From: Variovorax sp. CF079 | GTDB taxonomy: Bacteria; Pseudomonadota; Gammaproteobacteria; Burkholderiales; Burkholderiaceae_C | Direction: 5' to 3' | DNA: 64,000 nucleotides | NCBI RefSeq assembly: GCF_900101545.1 | Contig: NZ_FMZU01000006.1 | Span: 186,001 to 250,000, forward strand | Part shown: piece after piece, positions 3,863 to 19,008 of the stretch | Numbering within the stretch: position 1 is the stretch's first letter | Layout: each line of letters opens with the position of its first letter | Notes under the pieces: generated by a model | What the model saw: the letters and a program-made list of their open reading frames with translations, nothing else | The model's database searches: none | What the model was told of the DNA's origin: nothing | Program-made: the position numbers and the translations under genes

Positions 3863-6175
3863 GTGAGAGAGAAATCCCTGGCCCTGGCGTTCGCCGTGGC
3901 CGTTCCCTGGGCCGCGCCGGCAATGGCGCAAGACGCGGCATCGCCGCCTGAAGGCCTGATTCGTTCCCTCGGCACCGTCACCGTGACCGGTGGCCGGCCG
4001 AGTTCGCTGCCGACGCAGATTCCCACCACCATCGAAGGCGTGACGCGCGAGCAGATCGGCGAGACGGTGAACGCCACCGACAGCGAGGACGCGCTCAAGT
4101 ACCTGCCGAGCCTGGTGGTGCGCAAGCGCTACATCGGCGACTTCAACCACGCGGTGCTCGCGACGCGTGCCTCGGGCACCGGCAACAGCGCCCGCTCGCT
4201 GGTGTTTGCCGACGGCATCCCCTTGTCGAACCTGCTGGGCAACGGCGCCACCTTCGCGCCGCGCTGGGGCATGGTCTCGCCGGAGGAGATCGAGCGCGTC
4301 GATGTGCTCTACGGCCCGTTCTCGGCCGCCTACTCGGGCAACTCGGCCGGCGCTGTGGTCGATTACGTGACGCGCATGCCGACGCAGTTCGAGGCGCATG
4401 CCAAGCTCACGGGTTTCCGCTCGAACTTCGATCTCTACGGCAGCCATTCCTCGCCCGCCGGCAACCAGGTCGATCTCTCGCTCGGCAGCCGCAGCGGCGA
4501 CTGGTCGTGGTGGCTCGGCCTGAGCCGCACGCAAAGCAAGGGCCAGGCGCTGGTGTTCGCCAACCGTCTGCTGAGCGCGGGCACGGTGGGCAGTGCCGGC
4601 ACGCCGGTCACCGGCGCGGTACCGGGGCTCAACTCTTCGAACCAGCCCTGGTGGCTGCTCGGCGGCACGACGATCTACGACACGACCCAGGAGCAGGCCA
4701 AGATCAAGCTGGCTTACGATTTCTCGCCCACGCTGCGCGCCACCTACACGCTGGGCACCTGGAACAACAGCACGAGCGGCACGGTCGACAGTTGGTTGCG
4801 CGACCGCTTCGGCCAGCCGGTCTATTCGGGCCGCGTCAACATCGCCGGCCGCGTCTACAACCTCGACACGCCCAGCGCCGCCTTCGCCCCGACCCAGACC
4901 GATCTGCGGCACACCATGCATGGCCTCTCGGTCAAGAGCAACACGCTGGGGCAGTTCGACTGGGAGGTCGCGGCCAGCCTGTTCGACTACGCGAGCGACA
5001 TCGCGCGCACGCCGACTGCGGCGCTGCCCGCTGCCTTCTACGGCGGCGCGGGGCGTATCACCGACATGGACGGCACCGGCTGGAACACCCTCAAGGCCGC
5101 CGGCACCTGGCGTCCGAGCGGGTCCGCAGAGGGCATCGGCGCCCATGTGCTCGACTTCGGATTCCAGCAGGAGCGCTACAAGCTGCGCACGCTGGTGAGC
5201 AATACGCCCGACTGGATCGAGGGCGGGGCCACGAGCCGCTTCTCGGCCTTCACCGGCAACACCGAGCTGCAGTCGCTCTACGCGCAGGACACGTGGCGCT
5301 TCGCCCGGAACTGGAAGTCCACGCTCGGCCTGCGCCACGAGCGCTGGCAAGCCGACGGCGGCACGCTCGCCAACGCGACGGCCGTGCGAGCCTTTCCGAC
5401 CCGTACCGACAGCTACAACTCGCCCAAGGCCGCGATCGCCTGGCAGGCCTCGCCCGAGTGGCTCTTCAAGGCATCGACCGGCCGCGCGGTGCGCATGCCC
5501 ACGGTGAGCGAGCTCTATCAGGGCTCGATCGAGGGCAACACCATCCGCAACAGCGACCCGACGCTGCGGCCCGAGCGTTCGGTCACGACCGAGCTGAGCG
5601 CGGAACGCGATCTCAAGCGCTGGGGCATCGACGGCCTGCTGCGCACCACGCTGTTTTTCGAACGGACGAAGGACGCGCTCTACAGCCAGCAGCTGCGCCC
5701 GGGCGTCACCACGGTGCAGAACGTCGATGCGATCCGCACCCGCGGACTGGAGCTCGCCTTCCAGGGCGTCGACGTCGGCATCCAGGGGCTGGACCTCTCC
5801 GCCAGCCTGACGCTGGCCGATTCCGAGATCACCGCCAACCGCGGCTTTCCCGCCAGCGTGGGCAAAGCGCAGCCGCGCGTGCCGCGCACCCGCGCCACGC
5901 TGCTCGCCACCTACCGGCCCGACGCCCGCTGGTCATACTCCATCGGCGCGCGCTACAGCGGCAGGCAGTACGGTTCGCTCGACAACAGCGATCCGAACGG
6001 TTCCGCCTACATGGGCTTCAGCAAGTACTTCGTCGCCGACGTGCGCGTGCGCTATCGGATCGACAGGCAGTGGAGCGCAGCCTTCGGCATCGACAACCTC
6101 AACAACAACAAGTACTGGGCTTTCCACCCCTACCCGCAACGCACCTTCGTGGCCGAACTCAAGTTCGACCTTTGA
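3863..6175 (+). CDS. TonB-dependent outer-membrane receptor, probably for copper
   Basis: From a GTG start at 3863, preceded by GGAGAG at 3852, the product is 770 residues. It has a signal peptide (LALAFAVAVPWAAPAMA), a plug domain with LVFADGIPLSNLLGNGA and EEIERVDVLYGPFSAAYSGN, and a long beta-barrel ending in ...VAELKFDL. The terminal hydrophobic strand fits BAM targeting, although the last residue is Leu rather than Phe. TonB receptors import bound metal using inner-membrane energy. The flanking DUF2946 and PCu(A)C genes make copper or a copper chelate the best guess. An in-frame ATG at 3818 would put 15 residues ahead of the signal peptide and is less likely. Confidence 0.85.
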   Translation: MREKSLALAFAVAVPWAAPAMAQDAASPPEGLIRSLGTVTVTGGRPSSLPTQIPTTIEGVTREQIGETVNATDSEDALKYLPSLVVRKRYIGDFNHAVLATRASGTGNSARSLVFADGIPLSNLLGNGATFAPRWGMVSPEEIERVDVLYGPFSAAYSGNSAGAVVDYVTRMPTQFEAHAKLTGFRSNFDLYGSHSSPAGNQVDLSLGSRSGDWSWWLGLSRTQSKGQALVFANRLLSAGTVGSAGTPVTGAVPGLNSSNQPWWLLGGTTIYDTTQEQAKIKLAYDFSPTLRATYTLGTWNNSTSGTVDSWLRDRFGQPVYSGRVNIAGRVYNLDTPSAAFAPTQTDLRHTMHGLSVKSNTLGQFDWEVAASLFDYASDIARTPTAALPAAFYGGAGRITDMDGTGWNTLKAAGTWRPSGSAEGIGAHVLDFGFQQERYKLRTLVSNTPDWIEGGATSRFSAFTGNTELQSLYAQDTWRFARNWKSTLGLRHERWQADGGTLANATAVRAFPTRTDSYNSPKAAIAWQASPEWLFKASTGRAVRMPTVSELYQGSIEGNTIRNSDPTLRPERSVTTELSAERDLKRWGIDGLLRTTLFFERTKDALYSQQLRPGVTTVQNVDAIRTRGLELAFQGVDVGIQGLDLSASLTLADSEITANRGFPASVGKAQPRVPRTRATLLATYRPDARWSYSIGARYSGRQYGSLDNSDPNGSAYMGFSKYFVADVRVRYRIDRQWSAAFGIDNLNNNKYWAFHPYPQRTFVAELKFDL

Positions 6176-12167: not shown

Positions 12168-13436
12168 CTAGGAGGTGGCGAAAGCGAAGTCGACCTCGGG
12201 CTTGAGGCCGCTCACGATGCGCGCGATCGATTTGCCCGAGCCGCAGGCGTGGGTCCAGCCCAGCGTGCCGTGGCCGGTGTTGAGGAACAGGTTCGGCAGC
12301 TTCGTTTTGCCGATCAGCGGCACGTTGCTGGGCGTCGCCGGCCGCAGTCCGGTCCAGAACTGGGCTTGCGTGCTGTCGCCGGCGCCAGGGAACAGCTCTT
12401 CGACGCGCCGCACGATGGCCTCGCAGCGCACGCGGTTCAGGTCGCGGTCGTAGCCGTTGAGTTCGGCCGTGCCGGCGATGCGCAGGCGGTCGCCGGTGGC
12501 CGAGGTGTAGCGCGAGAACACCAGCTTGTACTCGTCGTCGGTCAAAGAGACCTGGTGCGCCTTCGAGGCATCCTTCACCGGCAGCGTGACCGAGTAGCCC
12601 TTGGCCGGGTAGATCGGCAGCCGGATGCCCAGCGGCGTCGCGTAGAGCGGGCTCAGCGAGCCCATCGCCAGCACGAAGGCGTCGCCGCGGATGCGCTGGA
12701 AGCGGCCTTCGTTGTCTGTCGCTTCCACGTGGTCGATGCTGCCGCCTGCTTCGCGCAGCGCGGTCACGGTGTGGCTCATGAGGAAGTTCACGCCGGCCGC
12801 AGAGGCCAGTGCGACCAGTTCGCGCGCGAAGCGGTTGGCATCGCCAGATTCGTCTTCGGCCGTGTAGGTGGCGCCGGCCAACTGGGGCCGGATGTGAGCT
12901 AGCGCGGGCTCGATCTTCACCGCCTCGTCGGCCGAGATCACCTGGCGCTCGCAGCCCAGTGCGCGCATCTGCTCGGCCGGCTTCAGTGCGCCGTCGAATT
13001 CCTTCTGTGTCGTATAGAAGTGCAGGATGCCCTGGGTGCGCTGGTCGTAGCTGAGACCGGTGTCGCGGCGCAGCTGCTGCAGCGTGTCGCGGCTGTAGGT
13101 GCCCAGGCGCACGATCTGCTCGATGTTGTGGCGCGTGCGCGCCGGCGTGCATTCGCGCAGGAACTGCAGGCCCCAGAGCCACTGGCGCATGTCGGCGCGG
13201 ATGCGAAAGAGGAGCGGTGCATCTTCCTTGCCGAGCCATTGCAGCACCTTGAGCGGCGCGCTCGGGTTGGCCCAGGGTTCGGCATGGCTGACCGAGATCT
13301 GGCCGCCGTTGGCGAAGCTGGTTTCGGCAGCCGGTGTGGCCTGCCGGTCGATCACGGTCACTTCGTGGCCGAGTTGCTGGAGGTAGTAAGCCGAGGTCAC
13401 GCCGAGCAGGCCGGCGCCGAGAACGATCACGCGCAT
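12168..13436 (-). CDS. FAD-dependent D-amino-acid dehydrogenase-like oxidoreductase, riboswitch-controlled
   Basis: The 422-residue protein begins with MRVIVLGAGLLGVTSAYYLQ, the dinucleotide-binding GxGxxG, followed by the acidic end of the second strand in TVIDRQ. It carries ETSFANGGQISVSHAEPWAN, a conserved block of DadA-type enzymes, and ends with the FAD-contact segment GHGTLGWTHACGSGKSIA. DadA enzymes oxidise D-amino acids to oxo acids and ammonia at the membrane. A glycine riboswitch with a terminator precedes it, so glycine or a related amino acid is the likely signal and perhaps substrate. The ATG at 13436 begins the Rossmann strand. The gene is one half of a tandem duplication with 13761-15008. 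Confidence 0.88.
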   Translation of the reverse strand: MRVIVLGAGLLGVTSAYYLQQLGHEVTVIDRQATPAAETSFANGGQISVSHAEPWANPSAPLKVLQWLGKEDAPLLFRIRADMRQWLWGLQFLRECTPARTRHNIEQIVRLGTYSRDTLQQLRRDTGLSYDQRTQGILHFYTTQKEFDGALKPAEQMRALGCERQVISADEAVKIEPALAHIRPQLAGATYTAEDESGDANRFARELVALASAAGVNFLMSHTVTALREAGGSIDHVEATDNEGRFQRIRGDAFVLAMGSLSPLYATPLGIRLPIYPAKGYSVTLPVKDASKAHQVSLTDDEYKLVFSRYTSATGDRLRIAGTAELNGYDRDLNRVRCEAIVRRVEELFPGAGDSTQAQFWTGLRPATPSNVPLIGKTKLPNLFLNTGHGTLGWTHACGSGKSIARIVSGLKPEVDFAFATS

Positions 13437-13488
13437 TTCGAGAACCTTTGAGGTTGCAGCGCTTGAACGCAACGGAAACGGAAGCTCG

Positions 13489-13523
13489 AAAAAGAAAGCA
13501 ACCGGACCATGCGTCCAAGTTGC
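13489..13523 (-). terminator. Intrinsic terminator in the riboswitch expression platform
   Basis: On the minus strand, GCAAC (13523-13519) pairs with GTTGC (13502-13498), and GGAC with GTCC inside it, around a short loop. TTTCTTTTT follows at 13497-13489. This U-tract hairpin sits between aptamer II and the start codon, so it is the likely switch that glycine binding prevents from forming. Confidence 0.7.
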
Positions 13524-13525
13524 CG

Positions 13526-13732
13526 CTCCCCCTGTCCTCGGTACCTGAGAGATTCACCCGCTGCGCCCGCAGCAGGTTTGCTCCTTCGGTGCATCACATG
13601 GCGTGATGGCTCTCCAGACGGCTTTGACAGTTGATGCAGTACAGGCTCATCGCGTGAGCCGACCTGAGCGTTTATGGGAGTTTGCGCCTTCGGTGGAGCC
13701 GCTTCCCGCGGCCCGCTCTCCTGCAGTGCAGC
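13526..13732 (-). promoter_or_regulatory. Tandem glycine riboswitch upstream of the first oxidoreductase
   Basis: Read on the minus strand, aptamer I (about 13725-13625) has GGAGAG, then CCGAAGGCGCAAAC and CGCTCAGG. Aptamer II (about 13620-13526) has CTGGAGAG, CCGAAGGAGCAAAC, GAATCTCTCAGGTACCGAGG and ACAGGGGGAG. These are the classic paired glycine-aptamer signatures. Glycine binding usually turns expression on. A terminator hairpin follows directly, so control is probably transcriptional. The 5' end reaches nearly to the stop of the upstream paralogue, so its promoter overlaps that gene's end or transcription comes from it. Confidence 0.93.
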
Positions 13733-13760
13733 AATTGTAAGGCGGCGAGGAGGCGCGCGG

Positions 13761-15008
13761 CTACGGATTTCTGAAGGCGAACTCGAGCTCGGGCCTGAGG
13801 CCGCTCACGATCCGGGCAATCGACTTGCCGGCGCCGCAGGCGTTGATCCAGCCGCGCGCGCCCGGCGCGACATTGAGGAACAGGTTGAACAGGCGGGTCT
13901 TGCCGATCATCGGCAGCCCGTCCCGGCTGACGGCATGCACGACCGTCTCGAGGGAGGCATGCGCCGTGTCGGCCGCGCCGGGCAGCAGCGTTTCGATGCG
14001 GCGCAGGATGGCGTCGACGCGGTCCGAATCGGGCTCGCTCTCTTCGTCGAAGCTGGCGCGTACCGTGGCGGAGACCCGCAGGCAGTCGCTGCCCGGCGTT
14101 TCGATGCGCCGGATGCCCAGCTTGCCCTGCCGGTCGCGCAGCGCGACGCGCGGTGCGCGGGTCGCGTCCTTGAGAGGGATCGTGACGATGTATTCGCGCA
14201 GGAAGCGAAAAGGCATGGCGATCTTCAGCTTTTCGGCGTGTATCGCGCTGGAGATGCCGAGCGCCAGCACATAGGCCTGGCCGCGCAGGACGACGGGCTG
14301 GCCGTCGGCATCGAGCAGCTCGACATGGTCGATGCGGCCTGCGCGCTCCTCCAGGGAGATCACCGTGTGCTGGGTCAGGAAGCGCACGCCGGCCGCGCGG
14401 CACAGGAACACCATGCTGGCCGCGAACTGAGCCGGGTCGCGCGCCGCCGGATCGTCGAGCGAATAGGCTGCGCCGGCGAGCTCGCCGCGCAGGGCCTGCA
14501 GGGCCGGCTCGATGCGCAGCGCCTCTTCGGCCGAGACCAGGCGCTCCTCGCATCCCAGATCTTTCCAATGAGAGGCGCGCGCCAGCCGGGCGTTGAAGGC
14601 GTCGGCATCGGTGTAGATGCTCAGCAGGCCCGGGTTGCGCTGGCCCGGGGGCACGCCGGCTTCGTCGCGCAACGAACGCACGATGTCGCGGCTGTAGGCG
14701 CCCAGCCGGACGAGGTGTTCGATCGGCTTGGATTTCGGCGCCTCGCCGATGGCGCGATCGAGCAGCTTCGCGAAGCGTCGCCGCAGGCGCACGTACAGCC
14801 CCACCCATTTCGCGCGGGCGGCACGGCGAGCGGCGGATTGCCGAAGAAGCTGGTCGGCCGCGGCCGTGACGACCGTGTCGACGCGCCCGCGCGCCTTGGC
14901 GGCCGGCGTGGCATGCCTGTCGACCACCGTCACTTCGTGGCCCAGCTGTTGAAGGTAATAGGCCGATGTCACGCCGAGCAAGCCGGCGCCGAGTACAACC
15001 ACGCGCAT
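13761..15008 (-). CDS. Second D-amino-acid dehydrogenase-like oxidoreductase, probably degenerating paralogue
   Basis: The 415-residue protein is clearly paralogous to 12168-13436: MRVVVLGAGLLGVTSAYYLQ at the start, LVRLGAYSRD in the middle and NACGAGKSIARIVSGLRPE at the end. About residues 37-70 differ sharply. Where the paralogue has ETSFANGGQIS, this one reads KARGRVDTVVTAAADQLLRQ. A neighbouring frame over the same bases reads TSFFGNPPLAVPP, close to the lost motif, which suggests two compensating frameshifts. The frame is otherwise intact. It also has its own glycine riboswitch. Activity is doubtful; it could be a recently inactivated or repurposed copy. Confidence 0.75.
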   Translation of the reverse strand: MRVVVLGAGLLGVTSAYYLQQLGHEVTVVDRHATPAAKARGRVDTVVTAAADQLLRQSAARRAARAKWVGLYVRLRRRFAKLLDRAIGEAPKSKPIEHLVRLGAYSRDIVRSLRDEAGVPPGQRNPGLLSIYTDADAFNARLARASHWKDLGCEERLVSAEEALRIEPALQALRGELAGAAYSLDDPAARDPAQFAASMVFLCRAAGVRFLTQHTVISLEERAGRIDHVELLDADGQPVVLRGQAYVLALGISSAIHAEKLKIAMPFRFLREYIVTIPLKDATRAPRVALRDRQGKLGIRRIETPGSDCLRVSATVRASFDEESEPDSDRVDAILRRIETLLPGAADTAHASLETVVHAVSRDGLPMIGKTRLFNLFLNVAPGARGWINACGAGKSIARIVSGLRPELEFAFRNP

Positions 15009-15090
15009 GTCCAGATCCTTTTGGGATGGCATGAACGGCGGGTCTGGGCGCTCACTGTGCGGAGCTGCCGTAACCCGGGGTTCAGATGCC

Positions 15091-15292
15091 GCTCCCCCTG
15101 TCCTTGGTACCTGAGAGATTCATCCGCTGCGACCTGCAACGGACTTGCTCCTTCGGCGCATCACCTGGCGTGATGACTCTCCAGACGGCAATTGACTAGA
15201 TGAGCAGTGATTCGAACCGATGCGAGGTTCACCTGAGCGTTCATGGGAGTTTGCGCCAACGGTGGGATGTCGATGCATCCGCTTTTCTGCGG
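15091..15292 (-). promoter_or_regulatory. Glycine riboswitch upstream of the second oxidoreductase, aptamer I altered
   Basis: On the minus strand, aptamer II (about 15187-15091) keeps CTGGAGAG, CCGAAGGAGCAAG, GAATCTCTCAGGTACC and ACAGGGGGAG. Aptamer I (about 15292-15231) keeps GCGCAAACTCCC and CGCTCAGG. However, the usual CCGAAGG reads CCGTTGG and the 5' GGAGAG is not recognisable. No U-tract terminator follows. A small hairpin (ATCC and GGAT) covers the AGGA ribosome-binding site, so control, if any, may be at translation. The gap 15009-15327 holds nothing else. Confidence 0.85.
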
Positions 15293-15327
15293 TAAGAATC
15301 TTAGCTTAGAAACCGGTTTCCTGGCCG

Positions 15328-16062
15328 TCACGCGCGGCGCAGGCGGGTGAACAGCTCGAACTCCCAATTGCGCATGCCCAGCAGCAGCGTGTAGCCCTCG
15401 CGCTCCTTGGGCGAGAGCTTCTGGTCGGTCTGGTGTTGCTGGGCGAAATCCTGGGCCACGCGCTGCAGCCGGTCCAGAAAGGCCGGCGCCAGCGAGCGGC
15501 TGATCGAGCCGTGAACCAGCAGCAAGCCTTCGGCCGGCCCGTCGAAGCCGCCTCGGTAGTAGTCGAGCACCACGTTCTCGCGGAAGAAGTCCATCACCGG
15601 CCCGTGCGGGCGCCAGCGGAAGGTCTTGGCGAGTTTCAGGCGGTAGCGGTTCAGCGGCCGGAGCTCGATGATGCCGATGCGGTCGAGTTGCGCGAGGTAG
15701 CCGATGCATTCGGCCTCGCTGATCCGGTAGGCGGTCACGATCTGCTCCAGCGTCCACTGGCTCAGGACGCAGATGGCCAGGAGCAGCAGCTTCTTGTCCT
15801 TGACCACGGCCTTTTCCTGCTCGAGCGTCAATTCCTTGAGCAGCGGCTGCGCATCGGCCACGCGGCGGGCGAGTTCGGCGAAGTCGATCTTGAGTGCACG
15901 GCAGATCGCATCGACCCGCGTGAGCGGCATGTCGCCCTTGGCGAGCATGCGCTTGACGCTGGATTCGGCCATGTCGAGCGACTTGGCGAGATCCGCATAG
16001 GTCATGCGGGCGGTTTTGAGCTCGTTCTTGAGAGCCTGCACAAGGTCGACGGTGGTGCTCAT
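15328..16062 (-). CDS. XRE-type helix-turn-helix regulator
   Basis: The protein has 244 residues. Residues about 17-60 form a Cro/C1-type HTH: MTYADLAKSLDMAESSVKRM, then LTRVDAICRALKIDFAELAR. After a helical linker, the remainder looks like a winged helix (WTLEQIVTAYRISEAECIGY) and an alpha/beta tail I do not recognise. It is a cytosolic DNA-binding protein. It lies divergent from the lipid operon at 16183 with 120 bases between, so that operon is the most obvious target, although autoregulation alone is possible. Confidence 0.8.
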   Translation of the reverse strand: MSTTVDLVQALKNELKTARMTYADLAKSLDMAESSVKRMLAKGDMPLTRVDAICRALKIDFAELARRVADAQPLLKELTLEQEKAVVKDKKLLLLAICVLSQWTLEQIVTAYRISEAECIGYLAQLDRIGIIELRPLNRYRLKLAKTFRWRPHGPVMDFFRENVVLDYYRGGFDGPAEGLLLVHGSISRSLAPAFLDRLQRVAQDFAQQHQTDQKLSPKEREGYTLLLGMRNWEFELFTRLRRA

Positions 16063-17046: not shown

Positions 17047-19008
17047 ATGACAGCACCGGTCGACGCCTCCATTGCCATCGCGCCCGAAGCGCATGCGCAC
17101 GCCAATCAATTCGCCTTGCTCGGGCAGCGGAGGTTCGGCCCGTTCTTCTGGACCCAGTTCGCTGGCGCGGCGAACGACAACCTCTTCAAGTTCGCATTCA
17201 CCGTGATGGTGACCTACCAGCTGCAGCTGGGCTGGATGCCGCCGGCCATGGCGGGATTGGCCATCGGCGCACTCTTCATCCTGCCCTTCCTGCTGTTCTC
17301 GGCGACCGCGGGGCAGCTCACCGACAAGTACGACAAGACGAAGATGATCCGCTTCGTCAAGAATCTCGAGATCGCGATCATGGCGGTGGCGGCGTGGGGC
17401 TTCATGCGTGCGGACGCCGTGGTCCTGCTGGGCTGCGTGTTCCTGATGGGGCTGCATTCCACGCTGTTCGGTCCGGTCAAGTTCGCCTACCTGCCGCAGG
17501 TGCTTGATGCGCGGGAGCTCACCGGCGGCAACGGCATGGTCGAGATGGGGACCTTCGTCGCCATCCTGCTGGGACAGGTGGCCGGGGGCCTTCTCGTGGC
17601 ATTGCCGCAGGTCGGCCACACCACGGTGGCGGTGGCTTGCGTGCTGTTGGCGCTCACGGGGCGCGCGGTGGCGCAGGCGATTCCACCCGCGCCGGCCACC
17701 GATCCGGGCCTCGTGATCAACTGGAATCCGTTCAGCGAAACCTGGCGCAATCTCAAGCTGGCGCACGGCAACCTGGTCGTGTTCCGTTCGCTCCTGGGCA
17801 TCTCGTGGATGTGGTTCTTCGGCGCCGTGTTCCTGAGCCAGTTCCCGAGCTTTGCGAAGGAGGTACTGCACGGCAACGAGCAGGTCGCCTCCCTGCTGCT
17901 GGTGGTGTTCTCGGTCGGCATCGGCATCGGCTCGCTGCTGTGCGAAACCCTGAGCCGCCGCCAGGTGGAGATCGGCCTGGTGCCGCTGGGCGCGATCGGC
18001 ATGAGCGTGTTCGCCATCGATCTCTACTTCGCCTCGCGCGCGCTGCCGCCCGCGGCGGAGATGGGGCTCGGTGCCTTCATGGCCCAGCCCGTCCATTGGC
18101 GCGTGATGGCCGACCTCGGCCTGCTGTCGCTCTTCGCGGGGCTCTACAGCGTGCCGATGTACGCGCTGATCCAGCTGCGCAGCCAGCCCACGCACCGGGC
18201 TCGGATCATCGCGGCCAACAACATCCTCAATGCCCTGTTCATGATCGGCAGCGCGGTCATCGCCGGCGCGCTGCTCAAGGCCGGCTTCACGATCCCGCAG
18301 ATCTTCTTGTTTACCGGCATCGCCAATGCGGTGGTGGCCTTCTACATCTTCATGCTGGTGCCGGAGTACCTGCTGCGCTTCGTGGCCTGGGTGCTGTCGC
18401 GCATCGTCTACCGCTTCGACGTCAAGGGCGAGGAGCACATTCCGGCCGAGGGCGCTGCCGTGCTGGTCTGCAACCACGTGAGCTTCATCGATGCGGTGCT
18501 GCTGATGGCCGCGAGCCCGCGGCCGATCCGCTTCATCATGGACCACCGCATCTTCCGCGTGCCGGTGCTCGGCTGGCTGTTCCGGTTGGCCAAGGCCATT
18601 CCGATCGCGCCGCAGAAGGAAGACCCGGCAGCCTATGAAGAAGCCTTCGCGCGCGCGATACAGGTGCTGCGCGAGGGCGATCTGCTCGCCATCTTCCCCG
18701 AGGGCGCGATCACGCGCGACGGCAGCCTGCAGCCCTTCAAGGGCGGCGTGATGAAGATCCTCGAGGCCGCGCGTGCCGAGGGCATCGATCCGCCGGTGAT
18801 CCCGATGGCGCTGACCAATCTCTGGGGCTCCTACTTCAGCCGCGTCGAGGTGCGCGACGGCGAGAACGTGGCCATGGTGCGTCCGTTCCGACGCGGCTTT
18901 TTCAGCCGGGTGGGGCTCCATGTCGGCAGTGCGATGCGCCACGCCGAGGTGCAGCCCGAGGCTTTGCAGCGGCGCGTGAGCGGGCTGCTGGAAAGCCAGC
19001 CGAGCTGA
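17047..19008 (+). CDS. Fused MFS lysophospholipid transporter and PlsC-type acyltransferase
   Basis: In this 653-residue protein, about residues 25-430 are a 12-helix MFS transporter of LplT type (FWTQFAGAANDNLFKFAFTV, then GQLTDKYDKTKMIRFVKNLE). About residues 440-640 are a glycerolipid acyltransferase with NHVSFID (the NHx4D motif, His about residue 477) and FPEG near residue 550. Related proteins import lysophospholipid across the inner membrane and re-acylate it. Many homologues carry a third acyl-ACP synthetase domain, as in Aas; this one ends after the acyltransferase, so an acyl donor must come from elsewhere. Its stop overlaps the PAP2 gene start by one base. Confidence 0.9.
   Translation: MTAPVDASIAIAPEAHAHANQFALLGQRRFGPFFWTQFAGAANDNLFKFAFTVMVTYQLQLGWMPPAMAGLAIGALFILPFLLFSATAGQLTDKYDKTKMIRFVKNLEIAIMAVAAWGFMRADAVVLLGCVFLMGLHSTLFGPVKFAYLPQVLDARELTGGNGMVEMGTFVAILLGQVAGGLLVALPQVGHTTVAVACVLLALTGRAVAQAIPPAPATDPGLVINWNPFSETWRNLKLAHGNLVVFRSLLGISWMWFFGAVFLSQFPSFAKEVLHGNEQVASLLLVVFSVGIGIGSLLCETLSRRQVEIGLVPLGAIGMSVFAIDLYFASRALPPAAEMGLGAFMAQPVHWRVMADLGLLSLFAGLYSVPMYALIQLRSQPTHRARIIAANNILNALFMIGSAVIAGALLKAGFTIPQIFLFTGIANAVVAFYIFMLVPEYLLRFVAWVLSRIVYRFDVKGEEHIPAEGAAVLVCNHVSFIDAVLLMAASPRPIRFIMDHRIFRVPVLGWLFRLAKAIPIAPQKEDPAAYEEAFARAIQVLREGDLLAIFPEGAITRDGSLQPFKGGVMKILEAARAEGIDPPVIPMALTNLWGSYFSRVEVRDGENVAMVRPFRRGFFSRVGLHVGSAMRHAEVQPEALQRRVSGLLESQPS

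Follow-up and report, generated by a model that had tools for sequence, protein, structure and literature searches.

Why do two genes for DadA-like amino acid oxidoreductases stand head to tail in Variovorax sp. CF079, each behind a glycine riboswitch of its own? The pair lies in a 64,000-nucleotide (nt) window of contig NZ_FMZU01000006.1 (positions 186,001 to 250,000), and the explanation favoured here, with good but not full confidence, is an old duplication of a riboswitch-gene unit, after which copy 1 would have stayed a DadA and copy 2 would have been repurposed behind a glycine switch that it kept. Coordinates are those of the window, and all features of the two units lie on the minus strand, apart from a strandless palindrome. 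Copy 1 (12168-13436, ATG at 13436) encodes a DadA-type flavin adenine dinucleotide (FAD) amino acid dehydrogenase of 422 residues that matches NF001933 and PF01266. Copy 2 (13761-15008, ATG at 15008, alternative ATG at 15032) encodes a diverged paralogue of 415 residues. Both proteins match PF01266 (226.5 bits for copy 1 and 158.2 bits for copy 2, gathering cut-off 27.9) and are 45% identical in alignment, consistent with the head-to-tail DadA-family pair that the original prediction had described from the letters of the DNA. The start codons are 1572 nt apart, as that prediction had stated, and the riboswitch 3′ ends at 13522 and 15088 are 1566 nt apart (predicted, about 1565). Direct repeats connect the two units at spacings of 1566-1599 nt: 131 nt at 82%, 143 nt at 78%, 59 nt at 75%, 57 nt at 86%, 51 nt at 92% and 35 nt at 91%. 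Because the repeats occur at a similar spacing and the aptamers are homologous, with significant RF00504 matches at both sites, riboswitch and gene were copied together as one unit, which bears out the earlier view.

The two proteins have followed different paths since. Copy 1 scores 496.4 bits against NF001933 (D-amino acid dehydrogenase), over the cut-off of 383. Relatives were drawn from 100 Variovorax genomes: all 29 copy-2 loci were taken, 20 of them with copy 1 beside copy 2, and the copy-1 sample of 32 consists of these 20 tandem loci and 12 further copy-1 loci (L106-L117). The FANGGQ loop and the GLRP arginine motif are retained in all 32 sampled copy-1 proteins, one of them with G for A in the loop, and copy 1 is, judged by profile and motifs, an ordinary, well-kept DadA. 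Copy 2 shares the fold family of DadA (NF001933/PRK00711) but reaches only 214.6 bits, below the same cut-off, and is without the motifs. In all 29 copy-2 proteins the Rossmann motif at the N-terminus and GAGKSIARI at the C-terminus survive, whereas the DadA/glycine-oxidase-type flavin loop and the substrate-carboxylate arginine are absent. FANG (residues 41-44) aligns to gaps in every one of them, E38 is changed to K or R, T39 and S40 are replaced as well, G280 is E, G388-H389 is A-P, and R365 is lost in favour of H, Q or Y. Glycine oxidase work assigns the FANGGQ loop to the flavin and the arginine to the substrate in this fold. Residues 38-100 of copy 2 are hypervariable, and their net charge averages +10.0, compared with +1.1 in copy 1. 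Because the ends of the fold are kept and the loop and arginine residues are lost, copy 2 most likely binds FAD and no longer acts as a D-amino acid dehydrogenase. A Foldseek search with the low-confidence structure model of copy 2 returns 4ysh as top match; the hits have root-mean-square deviations of about 8-14 and place the protein in the D-amino acid oxidase (DAO) fold, no more closely than that.

The altered protein is under constraint. No internal stop occurs in any of the 29 copy-2 genes, and the residues newly fixed in copy 2 are invariant in all 29. Over 190 genome pairs from the 20 genomes with adjacent copies, the median omega (ratio of non-synonymous to synonymous change) is 0.38 for copy 2 versus 0.125 for copy 1, and it falls to 0.09-0.27 in the closest copy-2 pairs. 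With an omega of 0.38, copy 2 is, by its substitution pattern, a maintained gene under moderate purifying selection and not a pseudogene. Between the two copies, the proportion of non-synonymous differences (pN) is 0.056 in the first 37 residues versus 0.60 in residues 38-100. Two other explanations of this contrast were set aside. Of gene conversion behind the near-identical first 37 residues there is no sign, the proportion of synonymous differences (pS) being 0.44 within and 0.45 between genomes; pS is 0.44-0.50 in other segments and 0.60 in residues 38-100. A frameshift behind the odd residues 38-100 likewise lacks support, without a formal frameshift test, as the segment is variable yet in frame in all 29 relatives with conserved in-frame flanks.

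A similar asymmetry is found in the riboswitches. Both copy-1 aptamers pass the RF00504 gathering threshold of 32 bits: aptamer 1 at 13643-13733 with 39.2 bits and aptamer 2 at 13522-13627 with 57.8 bits. At copy 2, aptamer 2 (15088-15194) is canonical and scores 54.3 bits, and aptamer 1 (15210-15299) has kept its helices around an altered core (GCAGAAAAG, CCGTTGG) and scores 21.0 bits (E 0.42). The claim of a tandem riboswitch at each gene thus stands for copy 1 and in part for copy 2, whose aptamer 1 is sub-threshold. As in other tandem RF00504 riboswitches, two aptamers precede one expression platform and three of the four aptamers exceed the gathering score; they differ in preceding DadA-type genes, not gcv or transporter genes, and in the copy-2 aptamer 1 without the canonical core. 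Of the 29 copy-2 loci, 28 have an aptamer 2 above the threshold, and a single one (L029) has such an aptamer 1. The core element GCAGGAGAG is present in 2 of the 29 copy-2 aptamers 1 versus 31 of 32 copy-1 leaders, and CCGAAGGCGCAA in none versus 31 of 32. An outgroup copy 2 (L147) retains both canonical core elements. The helices persist: in the alignment of 24 of the 29 copy-2 aptamer-1 regions (A7; L083 and four unrecognised regions omitted), P1 is invariant, the base of P3 is kept, and P2 shows compensatory changes in 7, 10 and 2 sequences at three pairs. The pattern of one degraded aptamer, a conserved partner and a kept P1 region fits that of ghost aptamers, and the copy-2 riboswitch resembles this process, seemingly caught in a duplicated twin. 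According to parts of PMC6944388, ghost-aptamer singletons have one degraded tandem aptamer, and aptamer 2 is conserved in the transporter context there, as it is at copy 2. The copy-2 aptamer 1 departs from those described in these parts in having retained P1, the base of P3 and a P2 that covaries, and its series can be followed from canonical (L147) through partly changed (L104, L105) to altered.

The direction in which these switches act is read from the platforms. The copy-1 platform (13456-13526) contains two mutually exclusive helices, H1 and H2x. H1 is a hairpin at 13498-13523 followed by a U-rich tract at 13489-13497, and H2x (13456-13526) uses the 3′ strand of P1. In the alignment of 25 of the 32 copy-1 leaders (A6; six shorter and one unmatched omitted), 94.1% of the H2x cells are paired, three pairs have changed on both sides, and the covariation score is reached by 1 of 500 shuffles. 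H1 is conserved (95.6%) but has zero two-sided changes, and the U-rich tract behind it is not found in all relatives. The copy-2 platform helix (15028-15090) also includes the P1 3′ strand; in the alignment of 28 of the 29 copy-2 leaders (A5), 94.0% of its cells are paired, and its covariation, with two-sided changes at five pairs and a score reached by 0 of 500 shuffles, is stronger than that of copy 1. A short AUCC/GGAU hairpin (15015-15027, 91.9% of cells paired) covers the copy-2 Shine-Dalgarno, with a two-sided change at one pair and three invariant pairs. If glycine stabilises P1, it would break the platform helices, and on this reasoning glycine would turn both genes OFF. Ribosome-site opening was compared by folding in 87 copy-1 and 29 copy-2 leaders (28 of the 29 genus copies and L147; 13 leaders skipped). 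Among the 87 copy-1 leaders, opening becomes harder for 27 and easier for 34, and this simple comparison is set aside there as an ON/OFF test, having no consistent sign. Taken together, a direction of OFF with glycine is slightly favoured by these models.

The promoter regions also differ. Upstream of the copy-1 aptamers, a -10-like TACAAT is found at 13734-13739; in 29 of 32 copy-1 leaders the pattern TA[CG]AAT lies 4-14 nt upstream of aptamer 1, and copy 1 may have its own promoter. A -10-like TAAGAT at 15298-15303 is assigned to copy 2 by eye, from the sequence and its relatives. Just upstream of it, at 15309-15320, is a perfect 12-nt palindrome, GAAACCGGTTTC, a candidate LacI/PtxS-type operator. 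The palindrome pattern GAAACCGGTT[TC]C is present in 20 of 29 copy-2 leaders versus 0 of 32 copy-1 leaders. The exact 12-mer has three sites in the 6.8 Mb genome (reversed control pattern, 0), and 16 other genomes have one to three palindrome sites each (control matches, 0 or 1). Among 18 sites that were read, 10 precede an amino-acid-type ATP-binding cassette (ABC) transporter, 6 are at copy 2 and 2 are beside a TctC-like gene. All 10 transporter sites carry the full TGAAACCGGTTTCA; they belong to CF079 and 9 of the 16 other genomes; in the remaining seven, the additional sites were read in part. In CF079 the transporter operon (L281:3319-10075, contig C19) continues with a gene that has no family hit, one like a sugar kinase, one for a 2-hydroxyacid dehydrogenase (PF02826) and one for a LacI-type regulator, the names kinase, LacI and 'kgu-like' being readings of the translations. 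In Pseudomonas, PtxS binds TGAAACCGGTTTCA upstream of the kgu operon, according to passages of PMC3402500 and PMC11678583. The system described in those passages shares with ours the 12-nt palindrome core, and the full 14-mer at a kgu-like operon with a LacI regulator; it differs in that the copy-2 sites match the inner 12 nt and are without the outer T...A pair (a few keep the A). Since the outer pair is absent there, a PtxS-like repressor acting at the copy-2 promoter is only a candidate.

How old is the duplication? Copy 2 is found in 29 of the 100 genus genomes, CF079 included, at 52-100% identity to the copy 2 of the window, and in one other genus. A copy-1-type match without copy 2 is present in 60 genomes, and 11 have neither. 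In the tree (134 rows, 131 of them different; loci duplicating G-genomes, loci from L198 onward other than L211, and proteins shorter than 380 or longer than 520 residues are omitted), copy 2 forms a single clade of 31 rows (support 100), in which L147 and L211 are one contig. This clade is nested among the family-wide copy-1 genes; the two genes do not fall into unrelated clades, consistent with the duplication as first proposed. Directly upstream of copy 2 lies a helix-turn-helix (HTH) regulator gene of the HTH_26 (Cro/C1) type (15328-16062, likewise on the minus strand, PF13443 39.8 bits), which directly precedes copy 2 in all 29 loci. Outside the genus, HTH is followed by copy 1 in L149 (a Rhodoferax metagenome-assembled genome, MAG), L152 (Pseudacidovorax) and L167 (Xenophilus), and within the genus G071 (L237) has HTH directly followed by copy 1. 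The neighbourhood is absent from the outside loci L153, L164 and L190 and from the copy-1 loci L106-L117. From these arrangements, the order HTH then copy 1 looks ancestral. In L147 (the G473 contig), a MAG from a different genus of the family, copy 2 precedes copy 1 and each has an aptamer. L165, a Xenophilus-like MAG, has at 4880-5650 a copy-2 fragment flanked by two riboswitches, with 88.7 and 116 bits for their second aptamers; here the switch outlives its gene. L147 and L165 group with Xenophilus in the copy-1 tree. Seven loci that have neither copy behind the HTH gene (L235, L238, L247, L253, L255, L256, L257) showed no leftover riboswitch at that place; six of these genomes have copy 1 elsewhere, and it was not found in G046 (L247). 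Just downstream of the HTH gene in L238 is a short remnant like copy-1 residues 336-371, the dadA cluster being gone. The simplest history is that the duplication is old and preceded the split of the Variovorax and Xenophilus-like lineages, with repeated loss of copy 2 and relocation of copy 1 afterwards; transfer between lineages is a possible alternative. The comparison of Variovorax genomes, which the original prediction had proposed for dating, hence upholds the duplication itself, and it also indicates an event that is old, not recent, and a copy 2 that is no longer a typical DadA.

The riboswitch link of the family extends beyond this pair. Among 80 named loci, the best of 264 found, 14 are matched at copy 2 and 66 at copy 1, and a model from 28 aptamers (A4 alignment, R1 model) detects an aptamer ahead of the matched gene in 74, comprising all 14 copy-2-matched and 60 of the 66 copy-1-matched loci (those without are L161, L174, L179, L181, L196 and L197). 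The riboswitch-linked loci span Variovorax, Acidovorax, Delftia, Xenophilus and Rubrivivax, up to two Nevskiales MAGs. In addition, four of the 100 genus genomes have a glycine riboswitch in front of another DadA family (L048, L049, L050 and L051, in G078, G057, G027 and G035); L048, the only one of the four tested, matches the PRK12409 equivalog at 739.6 bits versus a cut-off of 494. All four genomes fall among the 11 without a copy-1 or copy-2 match, with a chance of 8e-5. With this separate family also linked to a glycine riboswitch, it is likely that glycine and a DadA-type enzyme are truly connected in function. Among solved structures, copy 1 is closest in sequence to glycine oxidases (4ysh, 7cyx), and its GLRP aligns with the G-R-P motif of the solved enzymes. 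Profile searches of solved structures returned nothing at strict E-values; matches appeared at looser limits. ThiO/GO itself is a different matter, as TIGR02352 stays far under its cut-off of 250.8 for copy 1 (111.7) and copy 2 (61.0). The structure model of copy 1 was set aside, its alignment being too shallow and its mean predicted local distance difference test (pLDDT) value 54.9. The substrate of copy 1 would be glycine, D-alanine or a near relative. Two side observations concern other glycine riboswitches: a further tandem one in CF079 precedes a gene read as gcvT, and in two other genus genomes (L065, L069) one precedes, by eye, a gene like that of an ABC-transporter substrate-binding protein.

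What copy 2 now does can be weighed against several alternatives. That it is a redundant duplicate in decay, its frames open by chance, would suit its faster evolution relative to copy 1, its not being found in 71 of 100 genomes and the fragment in L165, but this is improbable and disfavoured given uninterrupted frames in 29 of 29, the low omega of the closest pairs, newly fixed residues in every copy, a riboswitch kept in 28 of 29 and a palindrome in 20 of 29. Repurposing itself could take more specific forms. Copy 2 could have become the non-catalytic FAD-binding subunit of copy 1 in a heteromeric glycine-responsive dehydrogenase; heteromeric DAO-fold enzymes do exist, with heterotetrameric sarcosine oxidase among the matches, a glycine riboswitch stands before both genes, and the copies are adjacent in 20 of the 29 genomes. 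Five copy-2 genomes (G053, G056, G064, G088 and G092) have no copy-1 match at the E 1e-60 by which presence was judged, three of them near-complete (G053, G056 and G092, at least 99% complete in at most 20 contigs), which argues against an obligate partnership, and the 60 genomes with a copy-1-type match and no copy 2 point the same way; this form is considered unlikely. A flavin oxidoreductase with a new substrate, possibly in sugar-acid metabolism through the PtxS-like palindrome, is a tentative possibility. The conserved FAD-binding ends, the palindrome core within a full PtxS 14-mer before the ABC transporter in CF079 and 9 of 16 other genomes, an operon that in CF079 runs on into genes read as sugar-acid genes with a LacI regulator, and the binding of TGAAACCGGTTTCA by PtxS in the passages cited above speak for it; the flavin loop and substrate arginine gone from all 29 proteins, and the T...A pair missing from the copy-2 sites, speak against it, and the idea is read from sequence. 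Rather doubtful, too, is a flavin-binding pseudo-dehydrogenase turned sensor or regulatory protein and fixed across species, with inputs from a LacI-family repressor and from a glycine riboswitch whose aptamer 1 would be a non-glycine or differently specific scaffold.

The original prediction had suggested oxidation of glycine or a close relative, or a glycine-overflow route, which is taken here to mean that glycine induces both DadA enzymes. Riboswitches at both genes, the resemblance of copy 1 to glycine oxidases among solved structures, and the second DadA family behind a glycine riboswitch in four genomes, none of which has a copy-1 or copy-2 match, are in its favour. Such a route requires an ON switch, whereas the platforms do not indicate one: folding gives no consistent sign for copy 1 and an OFF lean for copy 2. 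The gcv operon, moreover, has its own riboswitch. Glycine oxidation or overflow is at best compatible with what the motifs and profiles indicate for copy 1; copy 2, having lost the residues that handle the substrate, is an unlikely candidate for it. As a whole, the overflow route for both enzymes has little probability.

The favoured explanation, an old unit duplication with a conserved copy 1 and a repurposed copy 2, can be set out as a sequence of events. The ancestral unit would have comprised a promoter, a tandem glycine riboswitch and dadA, beside the HTH regulator gene, and would have been duplicated in tandem before the Variovorax/Xenophilus-like split. Copy 1 would have stayed a DadA-type FAD dehydrogenase under glycine control. 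Copy 2 would have been repurposed, keeping its FAD-binding ends, losing the flavin-loop and substrate-carboxylate residues and gaining new fixed ones. Glycine would still act on copy 2 via aptamer 2, and aptamer 1 would have turned into a structural scaffold with a changed ligand core. A LacI/PtxS-like palindrome would have been gained at the promoter in most copy-2 genomes, so that copy 2 probably integrates two signals.

Several observations weigh against parts of this explanation. On the protein side, FAD binding by copy 2 is deduced from motifs, and its structure model has a mean pLDDT of 62 with a low-confidence C-terminus. On the RNA side, the aptamer 1 of copy 1 is itself weak, passing the threshold at 18 of 20 tandem loci but not at L040 and L041, and one copy 2 of the 29 (G056; L036/L095) is without a detectable riboswitch. 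The split fold comparison of copy 1 speaks consistently for neither ON nor OFF, that of copy 2 only leans (of 29 leaders, 17 become harder to open and 5 easier), and a terminator scan of the stretch gave two matches, one at 13502-13518, with no excess over the shuffle mean of 1.6. A sigma-70 consensus scan found no full site within the stretch, and the flanks of the palindrome at copy 2 differ from those of the PtxS 14-mer. Copy 2 was not found in 71 of the 100 genomes, some of them incomplete, and is thus not essential to the genus; the tree carries long-branch warnings at copy 2 and leaves its sister group unresolved. Separately, the genome without a copy-2 riboswitch, G056, is also one without a copy-1 match.

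Elsewhere in the window, the Rfam family Bcj11 (RF02835) matches at 17747-17868 inside a major facilitator superfamily (MFS)/acyltransferase frame (17047-19008), a match that probably reflects protein conservation and not a small RNA. No paper linking a glycine riboswitch with DadA, an amino acid oxidase or Variovorax was found by title and abstract opening, and no DadA gene appears in the text passages of PMC3766115, PMC12452182, PMC2211319 and PMC2258182, supplementary tables excepted.

In conclusion, the locus provides a natural series of about 30 genomes in which one unit appears to stay static and its twin to lose catalytic residues, convert an aptamer and gain a promoter palindrome. Such a series would let the order of each step, and the need for it, be tested. 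The wider distribution of the riboswitch-linked genes suggests that, in Comamonadaceae-type bacteria, glycine riboswitches have a widespread target in DadA-type flavoenzymes.

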